Assembly: GCF_004001325.1 (NCBI RefSeq)
Contig: NZ_AP018722.1
Location: 62,001-126,000 of the forward strand
Length of the DNA stretch: 64,000 nt
Direction: 5' to 3'
From: Thiomicrorhabdus aquaedulcis
GTDB lineage: Bacteria; Pseudomonadota; Gammaproteobacteria; Thiomicrospirales; Thiomicrospiraceae
Every line of letters begins with the position of its first letter. Within the stretch, counting starts at the first letter, position 1. Below, in pieces: positions 35,771 through 64,000 of this stretch. The notes below the pieces were generated by a model, which searched no databases, was not told the origin of the DNA, and worked only from the letters and a program-made list of their open reading frames with translations. The translations under genes were made by a program, and so were the position numbers.

Positions 35771-38700
35771 GTCGCGCCCCCCGCGGGCGCGTGGATTGAA
35801 ACTAAAACATAAACAAACATTGCGAAACTATCATTTTCGTCGCGCCCCCCGCGGGCGCGTGGATTGAAACGTCCTGAGTGGCAATACCTGGCCGCTCATA
35901 CGAGTCGCGCCCCCCGCGGGCGCGTGGATTGAAACTAATAACAACGGCAAACCAACATAAGCACCGCCGTCGCGCCCCCCGCGGGCGCGTGGATTGAAAC
36001 TCGTGATGATTCTAGTGCGTTTTGAATTACCGCAGTCGCGCCCCCCGCGGGCGCGTGGATTGAAACGCGGCAAGTGCTTTGAGTTAAGCGTTGTACTCTG
36101 TCGCGCCCCCCGCGGGCGCGTGGATTGAAACCCACCTTACGGTTTTATCAACAATGATACTGGCTGTCGCGCCCCCCGCGGGCGCGTGGATTGAAACAAA
36201 CCAAAGCTACACTTTCCGCCTGCGCGTTAGGTCGCGCCCCCCGCGGGCGCGTGGATTGAAACGACCTACCCCAACACGTCGCACAAGTAGCCAAAGAGTC
36301 GCGCCCCCCGCGGGCGCGTGGATTGAAACAATAGTACGGGCGAATTTGGCCACATTTGCGGAAGTCGCGCCCCCCGCGGGCGCGTGGATTGAAACCCAAA
36401 ATAGGCTTTTACCGGTACCCTGCGGACCGTCGCGCCCCCCGCGGGCGCGTGGATTGAAACATAAAGTCCTAGGTTTTTGTAGTTGTCGCCGCCCAGTCGC
36501 GCCCCCCGCGGGCGCGTGGATTGAAACAAATGGAATCAACTATCGCTACAGTAGCTATTGAGTCGCGCCCCCCGCGGGCGCGTGGATTGAAACTCCGCCT
36601 CCTCCGGTTGAGAAGACAAACCAAGAGGTCGCGCCCCCCGCGGGCGCGTGGATTGAAACAACAGCGTACTTTGTTTCAAGCGAACGGCTATCCTGTCGCG
36701 CCCCCCGCGGGCGCGTGGATTGAAACCATGTACCCGGCCATTAGGCATGGCTGGTATGTAGTCGCGCCCCCCGCGGGCGCGTGGATTGAAACGAGCATTT
36801 GGTCGTATGGAATAGAAGTCGTTGCCGTCGCGCCCCCCGCGGGCGCGTGGATTGAAACCCACAAAACCCACTGTGTGCTTAAACGCTTGGGTGGTCGCGC
36901 CCCCCGCGGGCGCGTGGATTGAAACTAAGGCCTGCTGGGTCTGCTGAACTTGGCTGGTGTCGCGCCCCCCGCGGGCGCGTGGATTGAAACTGACCCATGA
37001 CGTCTTTGTCGTCTGGGGTTAAATCGTCGCGCCCCCCGCGGGCGCGTGGATTGAAACGGTGCCATTGGTCGCCGCCGCGCTGTAAGGCGCGGTCGCGCCC
37101 CCCGCGGGCGCGTGGATTGAAACTAGCTTACTGGTCTTTTTAGCCATTGCGCCAAAGGTCGCGCCCCCCGCGGGCGCGTGGATTGAAACAATTTCGTATG
37201 CCAACCCGTTTGGGGCAAAGAATAGTCGCGCCCCCCGCGGGCGCGTGGATTGAAACACAGCACGATTGGCTAAGACTTCATCAATCTGATAGTCGCGCCC
37301 CCCGCGGGCGCGTGGATTGAAACTTGCGTATGGCACGAGAGCCTCGGTTGCTATGTGCGTCGCGCCCCCCGCGGGCGCGTGGATTGAAACTTAAAGTCGC
37401 TTCCATCTTTTAGAACAGATTCAGGTCGCGCCCCCCGCGGGCGCGTGGATTGAAACTACCACGGGCGGCTGGGGCGTTAATCCATTCACTGTCGCGCCCC
37501 CCGCGGGCGCGTGGATTGAAACGGTGATAAGGCGTTTTATTTTTGGGTTAAACGTGTCGTCGCGCCCCCCGCGGGCGCGTGGATTGAAACAGCGCCCATG
37601 GTGCTGTTTACTAATAACAGCACGGTCGCGCCCCCCGCGGGCGCGTGGATTGAAACTTCAAACTCTTTAGAGCGCATACCGCGCGCTAAGGTCGCGCCCC
37701 CCGCGGGCGCGTGGATTGAAACTAGATTTTTATCAATTTGCTTTTTCATGGCGTTAGTCGCGCCCCCCGCGGGCGCGTGGATTGAAACTACCAGCGGCCT
37801 ACCCATGCCGCTTATGCCTTTTGTCGCGCCCCCCGCGGGCGCGTGGATTGAAACTATGACGAAGTCGTTATAGGGTCGGACCCCAACCGTCGCGCCCCCC
37901 GCGGGCGCGTGGATTGAAACATTGAGAATAACGCGAGGAGCACCTATGAGCTTTCGTCGCGCCCCCCGCGGGCGCGTGGATTGAAACAAACGTTACACCC
38001 AATAACAGCAGCAGGGTATTGCGTCGCGCCCCCCGCGGGCGCGTGGATTGAAACTTATGATTATTACGCCAAGTGTGAAGAAAGTCGAGTCGCGCCCCCC
38101 GCGGGCGCGTGGATTGAAACTAGGGAATGAGGAAGGGTAGGGGATCGTATTCAGTCGCGCCCCCCGCGGGCGCGTGGATTGAAACTCCGCATCGACAATG
38201 CATGGGTTGTCGTATCTACGTCGCGCCCCCCGCGGGCGCGTGGATTGAAACAACGTCAGGGGTGAGGTTAATTGGCTCATACGGCAACCTTGTCGCGCCC
38301 CCCGCGGGCGCGTGGATTGAAACAACGTCGCGGCCGCGTCGGCCTACCACGTTTTGGTCGCGCCCCCCGCGGGCGCGTGGATTGAAACCATTATAAGTTT
38401 TTACGGTTAAAAAAACGCCGTAGTCGCGCCCCCCGCGGGCGCGTGGATTGAAACTTAGAATCCTGTTCAGATGTTTTTAAAGAAAAGCGTCGCGCCCCCC
38501 GCGGGCGCGTGGATTGAAACAATAGTAGCCTAAAGGCAACTATAAGGCAACAAGTCGCGCCCCCCGCGGGCGCGTGGATTGAAACCGCTCCAACCTCCAA
38601 CCGCTTGCAAAAGAGGCCATGTCGCGCCCCCCGCGGGCGCGTGGATTGAAACCAAATGTAAACGTCACGGCCAACAATTGCGTCAAGTCGCGCCCCCCGC

Positions 38701-39380
38701 GGGCGCGTGGATTGAAACTAGCACGACCGGTTGGTGCTCGTTTGATAAAAACAGTCGCGCCCCCCGCGGGCGCGTGGATTGAAACACGTTGATTATTAGT
38801 TGCGGCTTGTACTTGTCGGGTCGCGCCCCCCGCGGGCGCGTGGATTGAAACACATGGTTAACATGATTGAGCGCGTAGGCGGTATGTCGCGCCCCCCGCG
38901 GGCGCGTGGATTGAAACATCTTTGTGCAGCCTTTGGCCACGCTCAACGGCTTGTCGCGCCCCCCGCGGGCGCGTGGATTGAAACTCAAGACTAGTCACCC
39001 ATTGAAAACCTTTTAAAGTCGCGCCCCCCGCGGGCGCGTGGATTGAAACCAACCCAAACCTTTATTTAGTGGCGTTCTATGCAGTCGCGCCCCCCGCGGG
39101 CGCGTGGATTGAAACGCCATCGTTATTACACCATTTAAAGGAAATAGGAGTCGCGCCCCCCGCGGGCGCGTGGATTGAAACATGCCTTAAATCGTGAAAT
39201 CTTAACCCCTCAATCCCGTCGCGCCCCCCGCGGGCGCGTGGATTGAAACTAAACTCCAACGTGTGCAGCCGGCCACAGTCCGGGTCGCGCCCCCCGCGGG
39301 CGCGTGGATTGAAACCTATTTCTTTATCTATGCCTTTGGATCAACCGCGTCGCGCCCCCCGCGGGCGCGTGGATTGAAAC
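35771..39380 (+). CRISPR. Type I-C CRISPR array, leader-proximal part (55 repeats)
   Basis: 32-bp repeats that begin GTCGCGCC, contain the CGCG/GCGGGCGCG hairpin and end GTGGATTGAAAC, the standard I-C handle. I counted 55 repeats, all identical by eye, with spacers of 33-36 bases, all apparently distinct. The array is 198 bp from the antitoxin and is interrupted after repeat 55 (39349-39380) by an IS3-family element. Repeat pitch is 65-68 bp. Spacer targets cannot be determined from this window. Confidence 0.97.
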
Positions 39381-39489
39381 TCGCGGAAAGGTGTCCAGCG
39401 GGTCGAAATATCGTACTGGACTGGCTACAATCCTTCGTACACAAAGACACGTTAAAATGTGACTTAAAAAATACGAATAGGAATTGAAC

Positions 39490-39789
39490 ATGAAACATCA
39501 AAAACGCTATGACGACCAACTCAAACAGCAAGCCATTGAAATGGCGCTAGAAGGTTCAAAATCCGTGGCACAAATCGCCCGAGATTTAGACATAAAAGAC
39601 AACACTCTTTACGGTTGGGTTGATAAACATCGTCGTGATAATCCTGATAAAGCTTCAACTAAACTGGTTGTCGCAATACCAGTCGATTTAGAGGCACAGA
39701 ACCGCAAACTCAAACGCGAACTCGCTCGTGCATTGGAGGACGTTGAACTCCTAAAAAAGGCGGCGGCGTACTTTGCGGTTCACAAGTAG
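39490..39789 (+). CDS. IS3-family transposase OrfA
   Basis: 99 residues. A helix-turn-helix (KQQAIEMALEGSKSVAQIARDLDIKDNTLYGWV) is followed by a leucine-zipper-like helix (LEAQNRKLKRELARALEDVELLKKAAAYF). The codons CTA AAA AAG at 39751-39759 contain the A AAA AAG slippery heptamer, where a -1 shift yields the OrfAB transposase. OrfA alone binds ends and regulates. Confidence 0.92.
   Translation: MKHQKRYDDQLKQQAIEMALEGSKSVAQIARDLDIKDNTLYGWVDKHRRDNPDKASTKLVVAIPVDLEAQNRKLKRELARALEDVELLKKAAAYFAVHK
39753..39759 (+). promoter_or_regulatory. Programmed -1 frameshift site of the IS
   Basis: A AAA AAG is in the correct zero-frame phase within orfA. The -1 frame is open from here through orfB without a stop. 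Confidence 0.85.
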
Positions 39790-39830
39790 CAAAGTACGCC
39801 TGGATAGACGAACATAAAGCCCACTATGGA

Positions 39831-40721
39831 GTGTGCCGACTGTGCCGATTAATGGATCTCAAACGCAGTAGTTACACCAGTCATCTTCAATCGCAGCCTG
39901 AGCGCGCCAAAAAGCAAGCTCAGCAACAGAATAGATTAAACGAACTAGATCAGCACATCACGAAGATGGTCGAGGACTACAAAAACACCATTGGTGCGCG
40001 ACGCATTAAAACCGCCCTCAAGCGCAAGCATAAGCTCATCGTCAGTCGCCGACATATTATTGAGCGTATGAACGCCTTAGAGTTAAAAGTCGTCACACGC
40101 CAGCGTTACCGTAATCGCAATGTGGCGGCCATTGACGATGACCGGATTGCGGCCAATGTACTCAAGCGCGAATTTAATGTTAAAGGGCCGAATCAAAAAT
40201 GGGTCGCCGACATTAGCTATATCCGCACGCTGGAAGGCTGGCAATATCTAGCCGTGTTTATCGATCTTTATTCACGCCGAGTGGTTGGCTGGGCTATGGA
40301 TAAACACATGAGTGCCCAACTGGTGAAAACCGCTTTAATGAGAGCGTTGTGGAGCCGAAAGCCCAAGCGCGGGTTGATTATTCATACGGATCAAGGCAGT
40401 CAGTTTGTCTCCAAGGCCTATCGTAACGTGCTCAAACACTGGGGCATAAAACCCAGCATGAGCCGTCGCGGAAACTGTTGGGATAATGCGGTGGTAGAGA
40501 GTTTTTTTGCTTCTTTGAAAAAGGAACGAGTGTATCGGACAACCTACAGCACGGGTAAAGAAGCATTATACGATGTGACCGAATATATTGGTTGGTACAA
40601 CCACAAAAGAATGCACAGTACCAATGACGATTACTCGCCAGTAGAGTATGAAAATCAATGGATCAAAGCCATGAAGGACTTAGATAAAAAATGGGCGTCT
40701 TTGTGTACGAAAAAGGGTTGA
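39831..40721 (+). CDS. IS3-family transposase OrfB (DDE integrase domain)
   Basis: 296 residues if started at the GTG at 39831, but normally made as an OrfAB fusion through the slippery site upstream. An HTH_21 segment (IGARRIKTALKRKHKLIVSRR) precedes the rve integrase core with the full DDE triad: WVADISYI, IIHTDQGSQF and WDNAVVESFFASLKKE. The frame is intact, so the element may still be mobile. Only one copy is present in the window. Confidence 0.92.
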   Translation: MCRLCRLMDLKRSSYTSHLQSQPERAKKQAQQQNRLNELDQHITKMVEDYKNTIGARRIKTALKRKHKLIVSRRHIIERMNALELKVVTRQRYRNRNVAAIDDDRIAANVLKREFNVKGPNQKWVADISYIRTLEGWQYLAVFIDLYSRRVVGWAMDKHMSAQLVKTALMRALWSRKPKRGLIIHTDQGSQFVSKAYRNVLKHWGIKPSMSRRGNCWDNAVVESFFASLKKERVYRTTYSTGKEALYDVTEYIGWYNHKRMHSTNDDYSPVEYENQWIKAMKDLDKKWASLCTKKG

Positions 40722-40732
40722 CAGTCCAGACA

Positions 40733-41817
40733 GTCGCGCCCCCCGCGGGCGCGTGGATTGAAACTCAGATAACAAGGAAAAAGTACAAGCACTAGGCGGT
40801 CGCGCCCCCCGCGGGCGCGTGGATTGAAACTTCCTGCTGCACCAAATACCACCCCACTACCGTGTCGCGCCCCCCGCGGGCGCGTGGATTGAAACTAGCC
40901 ATGGATTTACACGGCTTCCAAGGGCGTTGAGTCGCGCCCCCCGCGGGCGCGTGGATTGAAACTAAACATGTTCGTGATATGTATATACAGGCTGGGTCGC
41001 GCCCCCCGCGGGCGCGTGGATTGAAACGTGCCGAAGCGGTTAAAACGGATTACAAAAAACAGTCGCGCCCCCCGCGGGCGCGTGGATTGAAACATGAGTT
41101 TAGGACTAATTACATTTACGAGTTAGGTCGCGCCCCCCGCGGGCGCGTGGATTGAAACTCGCGATCGGTCAATCGGCCGTCCTGTAATGCCTGTCGCGCC
41201 CCCCGTGGGCGCGTGGATTGAAACTGCTTATGCTGCTGTTATTGATCCAGTTGTAATGTCGCGCCCCCCGCGGGCGCGTGGATTGAAACAGCGTAGCCAT
41301 ACGGTACGGTTTGATGCAGTGCGGTCGCGCCCCCCGCGGGCGCGTGGATTGAAACTCGAAAGGATTCGTGCATCATTACCCTGTCGGTGGTCGCGCCCCC
41401 CGCGGGCGCGTGGATTGAAACTGAAACTCACGCACGCAAAGTATGCGCATCTTTGTCGCGCCCCCCGCGGGCGCGTGGATTGAAACATTTGAGTTCGCCT
41501 TTATAAAATACGTGACTATGTCGCGCCCCCCGCGGGCGCGTGGATTGAAACAGGCTGTCTGCTAGGGTCACAAAATACGATTTCGCGTCGCGCCCCCCGC
41601 GGGCGCGTGGATTGAAACATCATAAGTTTTGCCAACATATTCAGCAGGTTTAGTCGCGCCCCCCGCGGGCGCGTGGATTGAAACCAAGTAAATGCTGTGT
41701 GCGGGACCCTGTAGCTTTGTCGCGCCCCCCGCGGGCGCGTGGATTGAAACAAACTTGCGTGATTGACTCGCTTGATTGGCTTGAGGTCGCGCCCCCCGCG
41801 GGCGCGTGGATTGAAAC
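40733..41817 (+). CRISPR. Type I-C CRISPR array, distal part (17 repeats)
   Basis: Seventeen further repeats of the same 32-bp sequence continue after the IS, bringing the total to 72. The repeat at 41193-41224 has a C-to-T change (GTGGGC for GCGGGC), as expected for the old, leader-distal end; the final repeat is at 41786-41817. Spacers are again 33-36 bases. Confidence 0.97.
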
Positions 41818-49565: not shown

Positions 49566-50807
49566 AGCTATTTTACTGCGCGGTTTAAGCGCCCTTAACC
49601 AAACGCCAGTGGAGTTTGCGCACGCCCAGTGGCTGTGGCTGGTGGTGTTGTGGCCTCTTTTGTGGGGTGTTTCGGCGTGGCTAAAACGCCAGCAAACCAC
49701 CGGCTTTATCGACGATGTGCAGCATTGGCAAGCCAGTCAAACCCTAAACGTGCGCCATCCACTGCTGGGCGTGTGGCTGGCTCAGCGCGCGCTAAATCCT
49801 GGCGATAACACGCAACAAATCCGCCACGTTGACGCGTTAGCGTGGCTGCTGCAAGGGTTGCGCGGGGTGATTATCGTGGCACTGGCGGTGGCGTTGGCCA
49901 GTCCGTATAAAATTGAAACGCCTATTTTAAACCCCTCTTTGACCAATACAGCAGAAAAGAAGGTGCGCGATATTCAGTTGGTAATAGAAAGTTCGGCGTC
50001 GTTTTTACTGCCCGACTATCAACTCAACGGTCAGCCCGCCAAGCGTATGGACGTGGTTAAATCGGTGCTGGATGGCTTTGTGGCGCAACTGCCGGGCAAT
50101 CAATTTGGCTTAACGGTGTACGCCGAGCAAGCCTACACTCTAATGCCCTTAACCCCTGATATTGCGGCCACGCGGCTTAATTTACAGCGTTTGCAGCCCC
50201 ATTTGGCAGGGCGCACCGACGAGGCGTTGGGCGAGGCGTTGGGCTTGGCGTTAAAAGGCGCAAGCGCTCAAATGAACAAAAACAGTGGCTTGACCAGGCC
50301 TGGTCAAGTTGATTTATCCGATTTAAAAGAATCTAACCCATCTAACCCACCTAACGCATCCAATGCACAACGCAATCGAGTGCTGGTGCTGATCAGTGAC
50401 GGACAATCCAAACCCAGCCGACTGGATTTGGCCGAAGCGGTGAATTACGCCCAATGGCTCAACGTGCCCATTTACACCATTGGCGTAGGAGCCGGGCACG
50501 CTACGGCCGACACGCGGGTGTTTACCGGCTTGTTGTACGAGCCATTAGACGCGCAATCGTTGCAATGGTTGGCTCAGCAGACCCAAGGCGTCTATTATCA
50601 AGTGGGCAGTGGTGAGGCGTTGCAAACGGTGTTACAACAAATAGAACACAGCAGCGGTCAACCTTTACCGCTCATCGCGGCCGCACCACAAAAACAGCGC
50701 TGTATTACCAACCATTGCAGTGGGCGGTGTGGGGCTTGGCGTTGTATGCACTTTTGTACGCCATGTTGGGCTTTGGCGCGCGCACAATTAACGGAGCATC
50801 CCAATGA
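49552..50807 (+). CDS. BatA-like VWA-domain protein (frameshifted near the end here)
   Basis: Adding one base to the A5 run at 50690-50694 gives 418 residues ending TALYYQPLQWAVWGLALYAL...ASQ, with a C-terminal membrane helix, and a stop at 50807 overlapping the next gene. As printed, the frame runs on to 51003 in nonsense sequence. Two N-terminal helices are followed by a VWA domain starting IQLVIESSASF, so the first metal ligand of the usual DxSxS MIDAS is Glu. LVLISDGQSKPS and YTIGVGAG are further VWA strands. AGGA stands 7 bases before the ATG at 49552. Confidence 0.82.
50293..50304. repeat. ACCAGGCCTGGT palindrome (coding, TRPG frame)
   Basis: Perfect copy, 18 bp with TTG/CAA flanks, in a hydrophilic loop of the BatA-like gene. 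Confidence 0.95.
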
Positions 50808-57432: not shown

Positions 57433-60400
57433 ATGGCAACAATTATCGGTCAAGTTACAAGCTTACAAGGCACAGTCAGAGCCATTAACCCGGTCACCGG
57501 AGAAGTAAGAATACTTGAGGTAGGCAGCCCAATTTTCGCCGGCGAAACCCTGCAAACCTCCAGCACCGGTGGCGTAGTGGTTAACATGCAAAATGGCGAG
57601 CTGCTTACATTAGGCCGTGACACCCAAATGCTATTAGACGACGACGTAATTGGCCAAGCCAACACCCCTGATATTACCGAAGCCAGCGCCGAAGTCGCCG
57701 CCCTACAACAAGCCATTTTAGACGGCAACGTAAACCTAGACCAACTAGAAGAAACCGCCGCCGGCGAAACCGCCGCACCAGGCAGCGCCTCCGAAGGCGG
57801 AGTGTTTATAGATCGAACCGCAGCAGAAGGCGAAGTAACCAGCGGGTTTGAAACCAGTACTAGCAGTTCAACCACTCTAACCGATGTGGAACGTAATGAT
57901 GCTGCTGAGCCTGCCGTTAATAATGCACCAACATTGCAAGATGACAGTCCTACTAACGCCGAAAACGACGCACTCACAACAGATGAAGACAACGCGATTG
58001 ATATTAATGTGCTCGCCAACGACACCGACATTGACGGCAACGTCTCAGCGGTTGCCTCGGTGACCCAAGGCACCAACGGGACAGTGGCCATCAATACCGA
58101 TGGCACGGTGAAATACACCCCGAATGCCAACTACAGCGGCAGCGACAGCTTCACCTACACCAATGCCGAAGGCAACACCGCCACGGTGAACGTCACGGTC
58201 AACCCCGTGAACGACCCAACGGTAGTGGTCAATGACGCAGCGACAACAGATGAAGACAACGCGATTGATATTAATGTGCTCGCCAACGACACCGACATTG
58301 ACGGCAACGTCTCAGCGGTTGCCTCGGTGACCCAAGGCACCAACGGGACAGTGGCCATCAATACCGATGGCACGGTGAAATACACCCCGAATGCCAACTA
58401 CAGCGGCAGCGACAGCTTCACCTACACCAATGCCGAAGGCAACACCGCCACGGTGAACGTCACGGTCAACCCCGTGAACGACCCAACGGTAGTGGTCAAT
58501 GACGCAGCGACAACAGATGAAGACAACGCGATTGATATTAATGTGCTCGCCAACGACACCGACATTGACGGCAACGTCTCAGCGGTTGCCTCGGTGACCC
58601 AAGGCACCAACGGGACAGTGGCCATCAATACCGATGGCACGGTGAAATACACCCCGAATGCCAACTACAGCGGCAGCGACAGCTTCACCTACACCAATGC
58701 CGAAGGCAACACCGCCACGGTGAACGTCACGGTCAACCCCGTGAACGACCCAACGGTAGTGGTCAATGACGCAGCGACAACAGATGAAGACAACGCGATT
58801 GATATTAATGTGCTCGCCAACGACACCGACATTGACGGCAACGTCTCAGCGGTTGCCTCGGTGACCCAAGGCACCAACGGGACAGTGGCCATCAATACCG
58901 ATGGCACGGTGAAATACACCCCGAATGCCAACTACAGCGGCAGCGACAGCTTCACCTACACCAATGCCGAAGGCAACACCGCCACGGTGAACGTCACGGT
59001 CAACCCCGTGAACGACCCAACGGTAGTGGTCAATGACGCAGCGACAACAGATGAAGACAACGCGATTGATATTAATGTGCTCGCCAACGACACCGACATT
59101 GACGGCAACGTCTCAGCGGTTGCCTCGGTGACCCAAGGCACCAACGGGACAGTGGCCATCAATACCGATGGCACGGTGAAATACACCCCGAATGCCAACT
59201 ACAGCGGCAGCGACAGCTTCACCTACACCAATGCCGAAGGCAACACCGCCACGGTGAACGTCACGGTCAACCCCGTGAACGACCCAACGGTAGTGGTCAA
59301 TGACGCAGCGACAACAGATGAAGACAACGCGATTGATATTAATGTGCTCGCCAACGACACCGACATTGACGGCAACGTCTCAGCGGTTGCCTCGGTGACC
59401 CAAGGCACCAACGGGACAGTGGCCATCAATACCGATGGCACGGTGAAATACACCCCGAATGCCAACTACAGCGGCAGCGACAGCTTCACCTACACCAATG
59501 CCGAAGGCAACACCGCCACGGTGAACGTCACGGTCAACCCCGTGAACGACCCAACGGTAGTGGTCAATGACGCAGCGACAACAGATGAAGACAACGCGAT
59601 TGATATTAATGTGCTCGCCAACGACACCGACATTGACGGCAACGTCTCAGCGGTTGCCTCGGTGACCCAAGGCACCAACGGGACAGTGGCCATCAATACC
59701 GATGGCACGGTGAAATACACCCCGAATGCCAACTACAGCGGCAGCGACAGCTTCACCTACACCAATGCCGAAGGCAACACCGCCACGGTGAACGTCACGG
59801 TCAACCCCGTGAACGACCCAACGGTAGTGGTCAATGACGCAGCGACAACAGATGAAGACAACGCGATTGATATTAATGTGCTCGCCAACGACACCGACAT
59901 TGACGGCAACGTCTCAGCGGTTGCCTCGGTGACCCAAGGCACCAACGGGACAGTGGCCATCAATACCGATGGCACGGTGAAATACACCCCGAATGCCAAC
60001 TACAGCGGCAGCGACAGCTTCACCTACACCAATGCCGAAGGCAACACCGCCACGGTGAACGTCACGGTCAACCCCGTGAACGACCCAACGGTAGTGGTCA
60101 ATGACGCAGCGACAACAGATGAAGACAACGCGATTGATATTAATGTGCTCGCCAACGACACCGACATTGACGGCAACGTCTCAGCGGTTGCCTCGGTGAC
60201 CCAAGGCACCAACGGGACAGTGGCCATCAATACCGATGGCACGGTGAAATACACCCCGAATGCCAACTACAGCGGCAGCGACAGCTTCACCTACACCAAT
60301 GCCGAAGGCAACACCGCCACGGTGAACGTCACGGTCAACCCCGTGAACGACCCAACGGTAGTGGTCAATGACGCAGCGACAACAGATGAAGACAACGCGA

Positions 60401-63400
60401 TTGATATTAATGTGCTCGCCAACGACACCGACATTGACGGCAACGTCTCAGCGGTTGCCTCGGTGACCCAAGGCACCAACGGGACAGTGGCCATCAATAC
60501 CGATGGCACGGTGAAATACACCCCGAATGCCAACTACAGCGGCAGCGACAGCTTCACCTACACCAATGCCGAAGGCAACACCGCCACGGTGAACGTCACG
60601 GTCAACCCCGTGAACGACCCAACGGTAGTGGTCAATGACGCAGCGACAACAGATGAAGACAACGCGATTGATATTAATGTGCTCGCCAACGACACCGACA
60701 TTGACGGCAACGTCTCAGCGGTTGCCTCGGTGACCCAAGGCACCAACGGGACAGTGGCCATCAATACCGATGGCACGGTGAAATACACCCCGAATGCCAA
60801 CTACAGCGGCAGCGACAGCTTCACCTACACCAATGCCGAAGGCAACACCGCCACGGTGAACGTCACGGTCAACCCCGTGAACGACCCAACGGTAGTGGTC
60901 AATGACGCAGCGACAACAGATGAAGACAACGCGATTGATATTAATGTGCTCGCCAACGACACCGACATTGACGGCAACGTCTCAGCGGTTGCCTCGGTGA
61001 CCCAAGGCACCAACGGGACAGTGGCCATCAATACCGATGGCACGGTGAAATACACCCCGAATGCCAACTACAGCGGCAGCGACAGCTTCACCTACACCAA
61101 TGCCGAAGGCAACACCGCCACGGTGAACGTCACGGTCAACCCCGTGAACGACCCAACGGTAGTGGTCAATGACGCAGCGACAACAGATGAAGACAACGCG
61201 ATTGATATTAATGTGCTCGCCAACGACACCGACATTGACGGCAACGTCTCAGCGGTTGCCTCGGTGACCCAAGGCACCAACGGGACAGTGGCCATCAATA
61301 CCGATGGCACGGTGAAATACACCCCGAATGCCAACTACAGCGGCAGCGACAGCTTCACCTACACCAATGCCGAAGGCAACACCGCCACGGTGAACGTCAC
61401 GGTCAACCCCGTGAACGACCCAACGGTAGTGGTCAATGACGCAGCGACAACAGATGAAGACAACGCGATTGATATTAATGTGCTCGCCAACGACACCGAC
61501 ATTGACGGCAACGTCTCAGCGGTTGCCTCGGTGACCCAAGGCACCAACGGGACAGTGGCCATCAATACCGATGGCACGGTGAAATACACCCCGAATGCCA
61601 ACTACAGCGGCAGCGACAGCTTCACCTACACCAATGCCGAAGGCAACACCGCCACGGTGAACGTCACGGTCAACCCCGTGAACGACCCAACGGTAGTGGT
61701 CAATGACGCAGCGACAACAGATGAAGACAACGCGATTGATATTAATGTGCTCGCCAACGACACCGACATTGACGGCAACGTCTCAGCGGTTGCCTCGGTG
61801 ACCCAAGGCACCAACGGGACAGTGGCCATCAATACCGATGGCACGGTGAAATACACCCCGAATGCCAACTACAGCGGCAGCGACAGCTTCACCTACACCA
61901 ATGCCGAAGGCAACACCGCCACGGTGAACGTCACGGTCAACCCCGTGAACGACCCAACGGTAGTGGTCAATGACGCAGCGACAACAGATGAAGACAACGC
62001 GATTGATATTAATGTGCTCGCCAACGACACCGACATTGACGGCAACGTCTCAGCGGTTGCCTCGGTGACCCAAGGCACCAACGGGACAGTGGCCATCAAT
62101 ACCGATGGCACGGTGAAATACACCCCGAATGCCAACTACAGCGGCAGCGACAGCTTCACCTACACCAATGCCGAAGGCAACACCGCCACGGTGAACGTCA
62201 CGGTCAACCCCGTGAACGACCCAACGGTAGTGGTCAATGACGCAGCGACAACAGATGAAGACAACGCGATTGATATTAATGTGCTCGCCAACGACACCGA
62301 CATTGACGGCAACGTCTCAGCGGTTGCCTCGGTGACCCAAGGCACCAACGGGACAGTGGCCATCAATACCGATGGCACGGTGAAATACACCCCGAATGCC
62401 AACTACAGCGGCAGCGACAGCTTCACCTACACCAATGCCGAAGGCAACACCGCCACGGTGAACGTCACGGTCAACCCCGTGAACGACCCAACGGTAGTGG
62501 TCAATGACGCAGCGACAACAGATGAAGACAACGCGATTGATATTAATGTGCTCGCCAACGACACCGACATTGACGGCAACGTCTCAGCGGTTGCCTCGGT
62601 GACCCAAGGCACCAACGGGACAGTGGCCATCAATACCGATGGCACGGTGAAATACACCCCGAATGCCAACTACAGCGGCAGCGACAGCTTCACCTACACC
62701 AATGCCGAAGGCAACACCGCCACGGTGAACGTCACGGTCAACCCCGTGAACGACCCAACGGTAGTGGTCAATGACGCAGCGACAACAGATGAAGACAACG
62801 CGATTGATATTAATGTGCTCGCCAACGACACCGACATTGACGGCAACGTCTCAGCGGTTGCCTCGGTGACCCAAGGCACCAACGGGACAGTGGCCATCAA
62901 TACCGATGGCACGGTGAAATACACCCCGAATGCCAACTACAGCGGCAGCGACAGCTTCACCTACACCAATGCCGAAGGCAACACCGCCACGGTGAACGTC
63001 ACGGTCAACCCCGTGAACGACCCAACGGTAGTGGTCAATGACGCAGCGACAACAGATGAAGACAACGCGATTGATATTAATGTGCTCGCCAACGACACCG
63101 ACATTGACGGCAACGTCTCAGCGGTTGCCTCGGTGACCCAAGGCACCAACGGGACAGTGGCCATCAATACCGATGGCACGGTGAAATACACCCCGAATGC
63201 CAACTACAGCGGCAGCGACAGCTTCACCTACACCAATGCCGAAGGCAACACCGCCACGGTGAACGTCACGGTCAACCCCGTGAACGACCCAACGGTAGTG
63301 GTCAATGACGCAGCGACAACAGATGAAGACAACGCGATTGATATTAATGTGCTCGCCAACGACACCGACATTGACGGCAACGTCTCAGCGGTTGCCTCGG

Positions 63401-64000
63401 TGACCCAAGGCACCAACGGGACAGTGGCCATCAATACCGATGGCACGGTGAAATACACCCCGAATGCCAACTACAGCGGCAGCGACAGCTTCACCTACAC
63501 CAATGCCGAAGGCAACACCGCCACGGTGAACGTCACGGTCAACCCCGTGAACGACCCAACGGTAGTGGTCAATGACGCAGCGACAACAGATGAAGACAAC
63601 GCGATTGATATTAATGTGCTCGCCAACGACACCGACATTGACGGCAACGTCTCAGCGGTTGCCTCGGTGACCCAAGGCACCAACGGGACAGTGGCCATCA
63701 ATACCGATGGCACGGTGAAATACACCCCGAATGCCAACTACAGCGGCAGCGACAGCTTCACCTACACCAATGCCGAAGGCAACACCGCCACGGTGAACGT
63801 CACGGTCAACCCCGTGAACGACCCAACGGTAGTGGTCAATGACGCAGCGACAACAGATGAAGACAACGCGATTGATATTAATGTGCTCGCCAACGACACC
63901 GACATTGACGGCAACGTCTCAGCGGTTGCCTCGGTGACCCAAGGCACCAACGGGACAGTGGCCATCAATACCGATGGCACGGTGAAATACACCCCGAATG
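57433..64000 (+). CDS. Giant LapA-like repeat adhesin (5' part, runs off the window)
   Basis: Open from ATG 57433 to the window end, at least 2189 codons with no stop. Residues 1-~75 (TIIGQVTSLQGTVRAINPVTG, GETLQTSSTGGVVVNMQNGELLTLG) are the retention module of LapA/BapA-type adhesins, which lodges in the outer-membrane TolC-like pore. Residues 108-111 are TAAG, the LapG protease cleavage motif. From about residue 182 the protein is a perfect tandem of 89-residue Ig/cadherin-like (Big_9-type) domains with Ca-binding TDEDNAIDINVLANDTDIDG. Secretion by a type I system is expected; the transporter genes and C-terminal signal must lie beyond the window. Confidence 0.9.
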   Translation, partial: MATIIGQVTSLQGTVRAINPVTGEVRILEVGSPIFAGETLQTSSTGGVVVNMQNGELLTLGRDTQMLLDDDVIGQANTPDITEASAEVAALQQAILDGNVNLDQLEETAAGETAAPGSASEGGVFIDRTAAEGEVTSGFETSTSSSTTLTDVERNDAAEPAVNNAPTLQDDSPTNAENDALTTDEDNAIDINVLANDTDIDGNVSAVASVTQGTNGTVAINTDGTVKYTPNANYSGSDSFTYTNAEGNTATVNVTVNPVNDPTVVVNDAATTDEDNAIDINVLANDTDIDGNVSAVASVTQGTNGTVAINTDGTVKYTPNANYSGSDSFTYTNAEGNTATVNVTVNPVNDPTVVVNDAATTDEDNAIDINVLANDTDIDGNVSAVASVTQGTNGTVAINTDGTVKYTPNANYSGSDSFTYTNAEGNTATVNVTVNPVNDPTVVVNDAATTDEDNAIDINVLANDTDIDGNVSAVASVTQGTNGTVAINTDGTVKYTPNANYSGSDSFTYTNAEGNTATVNVTVNPVNDPTVVVNDAATTDEDNAIDINVLANDTDIDGNVSAVASVTQGTNGTVAINTDGTVKYTPNANYSGSDSFTYTNAEGNTATVNVTVNPVNDPTVVVNDAATTDEDNAIDINVLANDTDIDGNVSAVASVTQGTNGTVAINTDGTVKYTPNANYSGSDSFTYTNAEGNTATVNVTVNPVNDPTVVVNDAATTDEDNAIDINVLANDTDIDGNVSAVASVTQGTNGTVAINTDGTVKYTPNANYSGSDSFTYTNAEGNTATVNVTVNPVNDPTVVVNDAATTDEDNAIDINVLANDTDIDGNVSAVASVTQGTNGTVAINTDGTVKYTPNANYSGSDSFTYTNAEGNTATVNVTVNPVNDPTVVVNDAATTDEDNAIDINVLANDTDIDGNVSAVASVTQGTNGTVAINTDGTVKYTPNANYSGSDSFTYTNAEGNTATVNVTVNPVNDPTVVVNDAATTDEDNAIDINVLANDTDIDGNVSAVASVTQGTNGTVAINTDGTVKYTPNANYSGSDSFTYTNAEGNTATVNVTVNPVNDPTVVVNDAATTDEDNAIDINVLANDTDIDGNVSAVASVTQGTNGTVAINTDGTVKYTPNANYSGSDSFTYTNAEGNTATVNVTVNPVNDPTVVVNDAATTDEDNAIDINVLANDTDIDGNVSAVASVTQGTNGTVAINTDGTVKYTPNANYSGSDSFTYTNAEGNTATVNVTVNPVNDPTVVVNDAATTDEDNAIDINVLANDTDIDGNVSAVASVTQGTNGTVAINTDGTVKYTPNANYSGSDSFTYTNAEGNTATVNVTVNPVNDPTVVVNDAATTDEDNAIDINVLANDTDIDGNVSAVASVTQGTNGTVAINTDGTVKYTPNANYSGSDSFTYTNAEGNTATVNVTVNPVNDPTVVVNDAATTDEDNAIDINVLANDTDIDGNVSAVASVTQGTNGTVAINTDGTVKYTPNANYSGSDSFTYTNAEGNTATVNVTVNPVNDPTVVVNDAATTDEDNAIDINVLANDTDIDGNVSAVASVTQGTNGTVAINTDGTVKYTPNANYSGSDSFTYTNAEGNTATVNVTVNPVNDPTVVVNDAATTDEDNAIDINVLANDTDIDGNVSAVASVTQGTNGTVAINTDGTVKYTPNANYSGSDSFTYTNAEGNTATVNVTVNPVNDPTVVVNDAATTDEDNAIDINVLANDTDIDGNVSAVASVTQGTNGTVAINTDGTVKYTPNANYSGSDSFTYTNAEGNTATVNVTVNPVNDPTVVVNDAATTDEDNAIDINVLANDTDIDGNVSAVASVTQGTNGTVAINTDGTVKYTPNANYSGSDSFTYTNAEGNTATVNVTVNPVNDPTVVVNDAATTDEDNAIDINVLANDTDIDGNVSAVASVTQGTNGTVAINTDGTVKYTPNANYSGSDSFTYTNAEGNTATVNVTVNPVNDPTVVVNDAATTDEDNAIDINVLANDTDIDGNVSAVASVTQGTNGTVAINTDGTVKYTPNANYSGSDSFTYTNAEGNTATVNVTVNPVNDPTVVVNDAATTDEDNAIDINVLANDTDIDGNVSAVASVTQGTNGTVAINTDGTVKYTPNANYSGSDSFTYTNAEGNTATVNVTVNPVNDPTVVVNDAATTDEDNAIDINVLANDTDIDGNVSAVASVTQGTNGTVAINTDGTVKYTPN
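57976..64000 (+). repeat. Perfect 267-bp tandem repeat, 22 full units plus a partial
   Basis: Units start ACAACAGATGAAG at 57976 and recur every 267 bp (58243, 58510, ... 63850). 22 complete units and 151 bases of the next fit in the window. By eye they are identical at DNA level; only the sequence before the first unit diverges. The array is in frame and continues past the window. Confidence 0.95.

Follow-up and report, generated by a model that had tools for sequence, protein, structure and literature searches.

The LapA adhesin of Pseudomonas fluorescens and P. putida, which is served by the LapB/C/E, LapD and LapG system, provides the background against which the stalk described below is compared. 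The ice adhesin of Marinomonas primoryensis, MpAFP or MpIBP, is a protein of 1.5 MDa (PMC4083281; PMC3492233). In the Periscope Proteins the DNA identity of the repeats is expected to drive length variation (PMC8201768; PMC9704523), and intragenic recombination between highly similar units has been proposed for such arrays (PMC8201768). According to the highlights of a study of the extenders of RTX adhesins, these repeats differ greatly across species (PMC7493085). Identical repeats of ~100 amino acids in adhesins of this kind are already known, from MpAFP and the Periscope Proteins. Here we describe an adhesin gene of the sulfur-oxidising bacterium Thiomicrorhabdus aquaedulcis with an array of identical 267-bp units and compare it with adhesin genes of related genomes. 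At a probability of roughly 0.87, we consider the product to be a LapA-type, type-I-secreted adhesin anchored by a retention module, with identical stalk units that result from recent expansion, recombinational homogenisation or both.

Architecture of the adhesin

The window, by which we mean the entire 64-kb stretch of DNA analysed, corresponds to C1:62001-126000 of the 2.54-Mb host assembly (G000), which consists of two contigs. The 5' part of the adhesin gene occupies 57433..64000 of the window on the plus strand, and the full open reading frame (C1:119433-128963) extends 2,963 bp past the window and encodes 3,176 amino acids, equivalent to about 325 kDa with a pI of about 4. An N-terminal outer-membrane retention module is predicted for residues 1-140 (57433..57852, plus strand). 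Residues 3-158 match PDB entry 5ix9 (phmmer, E 5e-12), described as Antifreeze protein and presumably representing the N-terminal part of MpAFP from Marinomonas, and homologous N-termini are present in 25 of the 32 genomes of the genus. A TAAG motif at residues 108-111 (57754..57765, plus strand) is, by analogy to LapA, a putative LapG cleavage site. Among the 11 other family adhesins read, TAAG occurs at residues 107-110 in nine, is replaced by PAAG in a second adhesin of G027 and is absent from that of G427.

A short linker and the 5' edge of the array (57853..57975, plus strand), where a diverged remnant similar to the tail of a unit is found, precede the tandem repeats (57976..64000, plus strand, continuing to C1:126331). 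Each repeat unit corresponds to one tandem-95/Big_9 Ig/cadherin-like domain, and profile searches matched all 24 units to Pfam Big_9 and Cadherin_4/5 and to NCBIfam tandem-95 (NF012211). A weak structure model of three units (mean pLDDT 66) had as its top Foldseek match 6xi1, the tetra-tandem repeat (extender) of an Aeromonas hydrophila RTX adhesin, which at a TM score of only 0.32 supports the fold class only. On the distal side of the array, residues 2375-2475 give a weak T1SS-143 match (58 bits, below the cut-off of 66), and a vWA-like region (residues 2479-2614) matches 9no5 and carries the sequence DFSTS, a DxSxS motif, at residue 2490. An AlphaFold model of the C-terminal region was discarded at a mean pLDDT of 50. 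No GG.G.D motif (GGxGxDxUx nonapeptide) occurs in the whole 3,176-aa protein, which therefore falls outside the RTX adhesins in the narrow meaning of the term; GGxGxD motifs do occur in the G005 adhesin and in one G027 adhesin. The length of the protein and its LapA-type architecture agree with the sequence-only reading, which had called it a giant adhesin. We propose that the N-terminal module would hold the type-I-secreted protein in the outer membrane, while 24 chained Ig/cadherin-like domains would form a stalk that keeps the distal region, with its T1SS-143-like domain, vWA domain (DxSxS metal site) and C-terminal secretion region, at a distance from the cell.

Extent and identity of the array

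Tandem Repeats Finder (TRF) reports one array at 57976-64000 of the window, with 22.6 copies at a period of 267 that match at 100% and are free of indels. Followed along the host contig, the repeat keeps its exact 267-bp period over C1:119976-126331 (window-equivalent 57976-64331), a length of 6,356 bp or 23.8 copies, made up of 23 identical full units and a 24th that matches over its first 215 bases. The 3' end lies 331 bp beyond the window edge and the array is not open-ended. The reading frame is kept throughout, with 0 mismatches and 0 indels, and identity between the units covers all synonymous positions. The sequence-only reading had claimed at least 22 repeats of 267 bp that are identical even at synonymous positions; both claims hold on the contig, the latter over 23 full units of 267 bp (89 amino acids) and the former with 24 protein domains. 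Chance is excluded as the source of this identity.

Synonymous divergence is confined to the 3' edge of the array, where the final unit, beyond the breakpoint, retains the peptide TVNVTVNPVND although 6 synonymous sites differ within 45 nt. Since the edge keeps its amino acids despite these differences, protein constraint alone fails to explain the identity of the inner units. The unit folds compactly and has conserved residues, as would be anticipated if purifying selection on the protein, together with codon usage, were all that kept the units alike; however, besides the silent changes at the edge, the codons of the array are opposite to those of ribosomal proteins (GC4, the GC content at fourfold sites, is 0.84 versus 0.18 in G000), and we regard this already disfavoured explanation as having next to no likelihood. 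Under the mechanism that we favour, the array would have expanded recently and/or been homogenised continually as its in-frame 267-bp copies undergo homologous recombination with one another, through unequal exchange or gene conversion, and the same exchanges would also gain and lose units. Intragenic recombination agrees with every observation made here. By analogy with the Periscope Proteins (PMC8201768), recombination may continue to alter copy number, between strains or within a culture, as the sequence-only reading had supposed.

Putative secretion and release locus

A LapB/LapC/LapE/LapD/LapG locus sits about 140 kb from the adhesin gene, in a block at C1:267-276 kb that comprises an OEP/TolC-type gene, a LuxR-type regulator, an HlyD-type gene, an LssB/LapB-type transporter, LapD and lapG. 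The LssB/LapB-type ABC transporter scores 961 bits in a profile search (curated cut-off 693), its gene is adjoined by the HlyD and TolC-type genes, and LapD has the domain order LapD_MoxY_N-GGDEF-EAL. By homology with the LapA system, the adhesin is predicted to be exported, retained and placed under c-di-GMP control.

The lapG gene (C1:274980-275776; L057:10980-11776, minus strand) has its reading frame broken at a T6 run, so that it lies in two overlapping frames, and PF06035 matches elsewhere in the genus are single frames, mostly of 220-260 amino acids. A batA-type vWA gene in the window has a frame break at an A5 run (50685-50700), with its C-terminal membrane helix going on in another frame. 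The association of both breaks with homopolymers suggests that they are leftover long-read errors. As lapG appears frameshifted in the host assembly, release of the adhesin may fail in the host strain; the break may be a genuine lesion, in which case the adhesin would be left permanently on the cell surface.

The adhesin locus in related genomes

The product of the gene 3' of the host adhesin (L009:17100-18542) combines a Ser/Thr-kinase-like domain with Sel1 repeats, and a similar kinase/Sel1-type gene also comes after the G007 adhesin. The adhesins of G005 and G009 have a chromosome position similar to that of the host. An apt gene lies 2.5 kb downstream of the host adhesin, and the closest named apt loci (~80% protein identity) belong mostly to Thiomicrorhabdus, with some from Thiomicrospira, Hydrogenovibrio and Thiotrichales MAGs. 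Many of these contigs stop one to a few kb upstream of apt, at the expected adhesin site, as expected of repeats that break assemblies. Elsewhere in the window, CRISPR-like arrays with the repeat GTCGCGCCCCCCGCGGGCGCGTGGATTGAAAC are found at 36028-41423.

The adhesins with the closest N-termini bear other arrays of near-identical units, of 312 bp in G007 (58 copies), 402 bp in G005 (14 copies) and 393 bp in G009 (4 copies). The G007 array (L041 and L111, C1:153737-171858) extends over ~18 kb with frame-breaking indels that cluster mid-array; its unit is equal in length to MpAFP RII. A higher-order repeat was identified in the G029 adhesin, in which 25 copies of a 405-bp unit form blocks of 7 and of 5 in alternation, with an unlike segment of 720 bp between them (L043/L044), and the G011 adhesin carries several blocks of a 393-bp unit. 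In other members of the family, G427 has one ORF of 9,550 amino acids in which a 351-bp unit recurs 46.9 times in near-identical form (L138-L139, C1:135719 on), and the arrays of G403 and G406 contain 18 and 17 copies, respectively, at 100% identity. Differing units are seen in G005 (8 distinct units among 14) and G006a (7 among 18). At the DNA level the host unit is closest, at about 75% identity, to an array that G010 carries in a different adhesin. The G029 and G011 units are homologous to each other, with identities of 99.5% and 90% within the species and 65% between them, and a tree separates the two species. This species-wise clustering, observed in one pair of species, amounts to concerted evolution.

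A single very recent burst from one seed, with no continuing homogenisation and an array destined to decay, would also produce 23 full units that are all identical and show no sign of a mutation-conversion balance, and the 0 substitutions in 6.36 kb would fit an origin within about the last few million generations at mutation rates usual for bacteria. However, near-identical arrays recur in the complete assemblies of many relatives with differing unit families, and the units of G029 and G011, although they belong to one family, are uniform within each species; a steady process accounts for this recurrence better than many separate recent bursts. We therefore view one isolated burst as possible, if rather unlikely. 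Recent expansion together with concerted evolution of the adhesin arrays is well supported, and the proposal of recent expansion or ongoing homogenisation made from the window alone is still the best reading, given species-specific arrays at a syntenic locus, units that cluster by species and synonymous divergence only at the edge.

The host array is known from one assembly of one genome of the species, and both its copy number and the perfect identity of its units rest on that assembly. The warning that assembly collapse is a risk was apt, as the truncated contigs of relatives at the adhesin locus illustrate. Consensus building or polishing with multi-mapping long reads could have masked slight differences between units, or copies could have been collapsed, and this would be in keeping with those contig breaks, with the central concentration of indels in the 18-kb G007 array and with the homopolymer frame breaks in lapG and batA of G000, which are typical of an incompletely corrected long-read assembly. 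Against this, the G000 array is without an indel and in frame for 6.36 kb, its ~6.4 kb fall inside ordinary long-read length, and the differing units retained in the assemblies of G005 and G006a indicate that such differences are not always erased. An artefactual origin of the uniformity is accordingly improbable in our estimation.

Base composition at silent sites

GC4 was compared for 18 arrays of near-identical units from 16 genomes (including L009, L041, L045, L052, L054-L056, L125, L127, L137-L139, L142, L143, L149 and L152). In this limited sample, which comes mostly from one family and one query and was chosen after the pattern had appeared in the first ten genes, 17 of 18 adhesins had a higher GC4 in the unit than the non-array remainder of their ORF, matched per amino acid, would predict (mean +0.21, p = 4e-5), the sole exception being G009 with only 4 copies. 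The excess over the rest of the ORF persists when one adhesin per genome is considered (15 of 16, p = 2e-4), and unit GC4 is also higher than the genome background (15 of 17, mean +0.11, p = 1e-3) and than ribosomal-protein usage (15 of 15, mean +0.40). Array-less adhesins have GC4 values scattered about that of the genome. The excess correlates moderately with array identity (rho 0.41) and copy number (rho 0.46). Translational selection for high GC4 was rejected as a cause, ribosomal-protein GC4 in the family genomes being 0.10-0.22 and far below that of the arrays, as was amino-acid composition, for which expectations were matched per amino acid.

GC-biased gene conversion has been argued for bacterial genes that recombine, including where it runs counter to optimal codons ending in A or T (PMC4450053), and the GC4 excess fits the pattern expected from it. 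The within-array test did not confirm this, giving no signal in the comparison of majority with minority alleles (182 S>W versus 162 W>S sites) or of core with edge units (p = 0.25). We advance only as a doubtful conjecture that high silent-site GC, at odds with the codon preference of the cell, builds up in recombination-homogenised adhesin arrays through a bias of bacterial gene conversion towards G/C. GC-rich seed units, or codons selected to slow the folding of identical domains, may be responsible instead. In the collection of open-licence papers searched, we found none tying adhesin repeats to GC-biased conversion. If the conjecture, still a hypothesis, is true, the arrays would offer a natural setting in which to study GC-biased gene conversion in bacteria, and the silent-site GC excess of near-identical arrays is a testable lead on biased conversion.

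Comparison with known systems

The host adhesin resembles LapA in its retention module, TAAG motif, giant repetitive stalk and vWA domain, and the host genome resembles the LapA system in having a dedicated T1SS and a LapD of the LapD_MoxY_N-GGDEF-EAL type. It differs from LapA in the distance of the adhesin gene from the lap locus, in the split lapG of the assembly and in the family of its stalk unit. MpAFP likewise belongs to a Gram-negative aquatic host and has an N-terminal retention module that is homologous by sequence; unlike MpAFP, the host adhesin has 24 units of 267 bp (89 amino acids) of the tandem-95/Big_9 type, and in it we identified no ice-binding domain and found no RTX motifs of the GGxGxD kind. 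The A. hydrophila extender (PMC7493085) is the top fold match of the three-unit model but belongs to a different sequence family. Like the host adhesin, Periscope Proteins are surface proteins in which folded domains of high mutual identity are arranged in tandem (PMC8201768; PMC9704523), although the best-studied of them are wall-anchored and Gram-positive, whereas the host adhesin is predicted to be type-I-secreted and is known from one genome. Taken alone, the host gene adds another example to the giant adhesins that have identical repeats. Its wider use is comparative: several unrelated, internally homogenised arrays occupy one syntenic locus in one genus, so that species can be compared there for the replacement of units, for concerted evolution and for bias in base composition.
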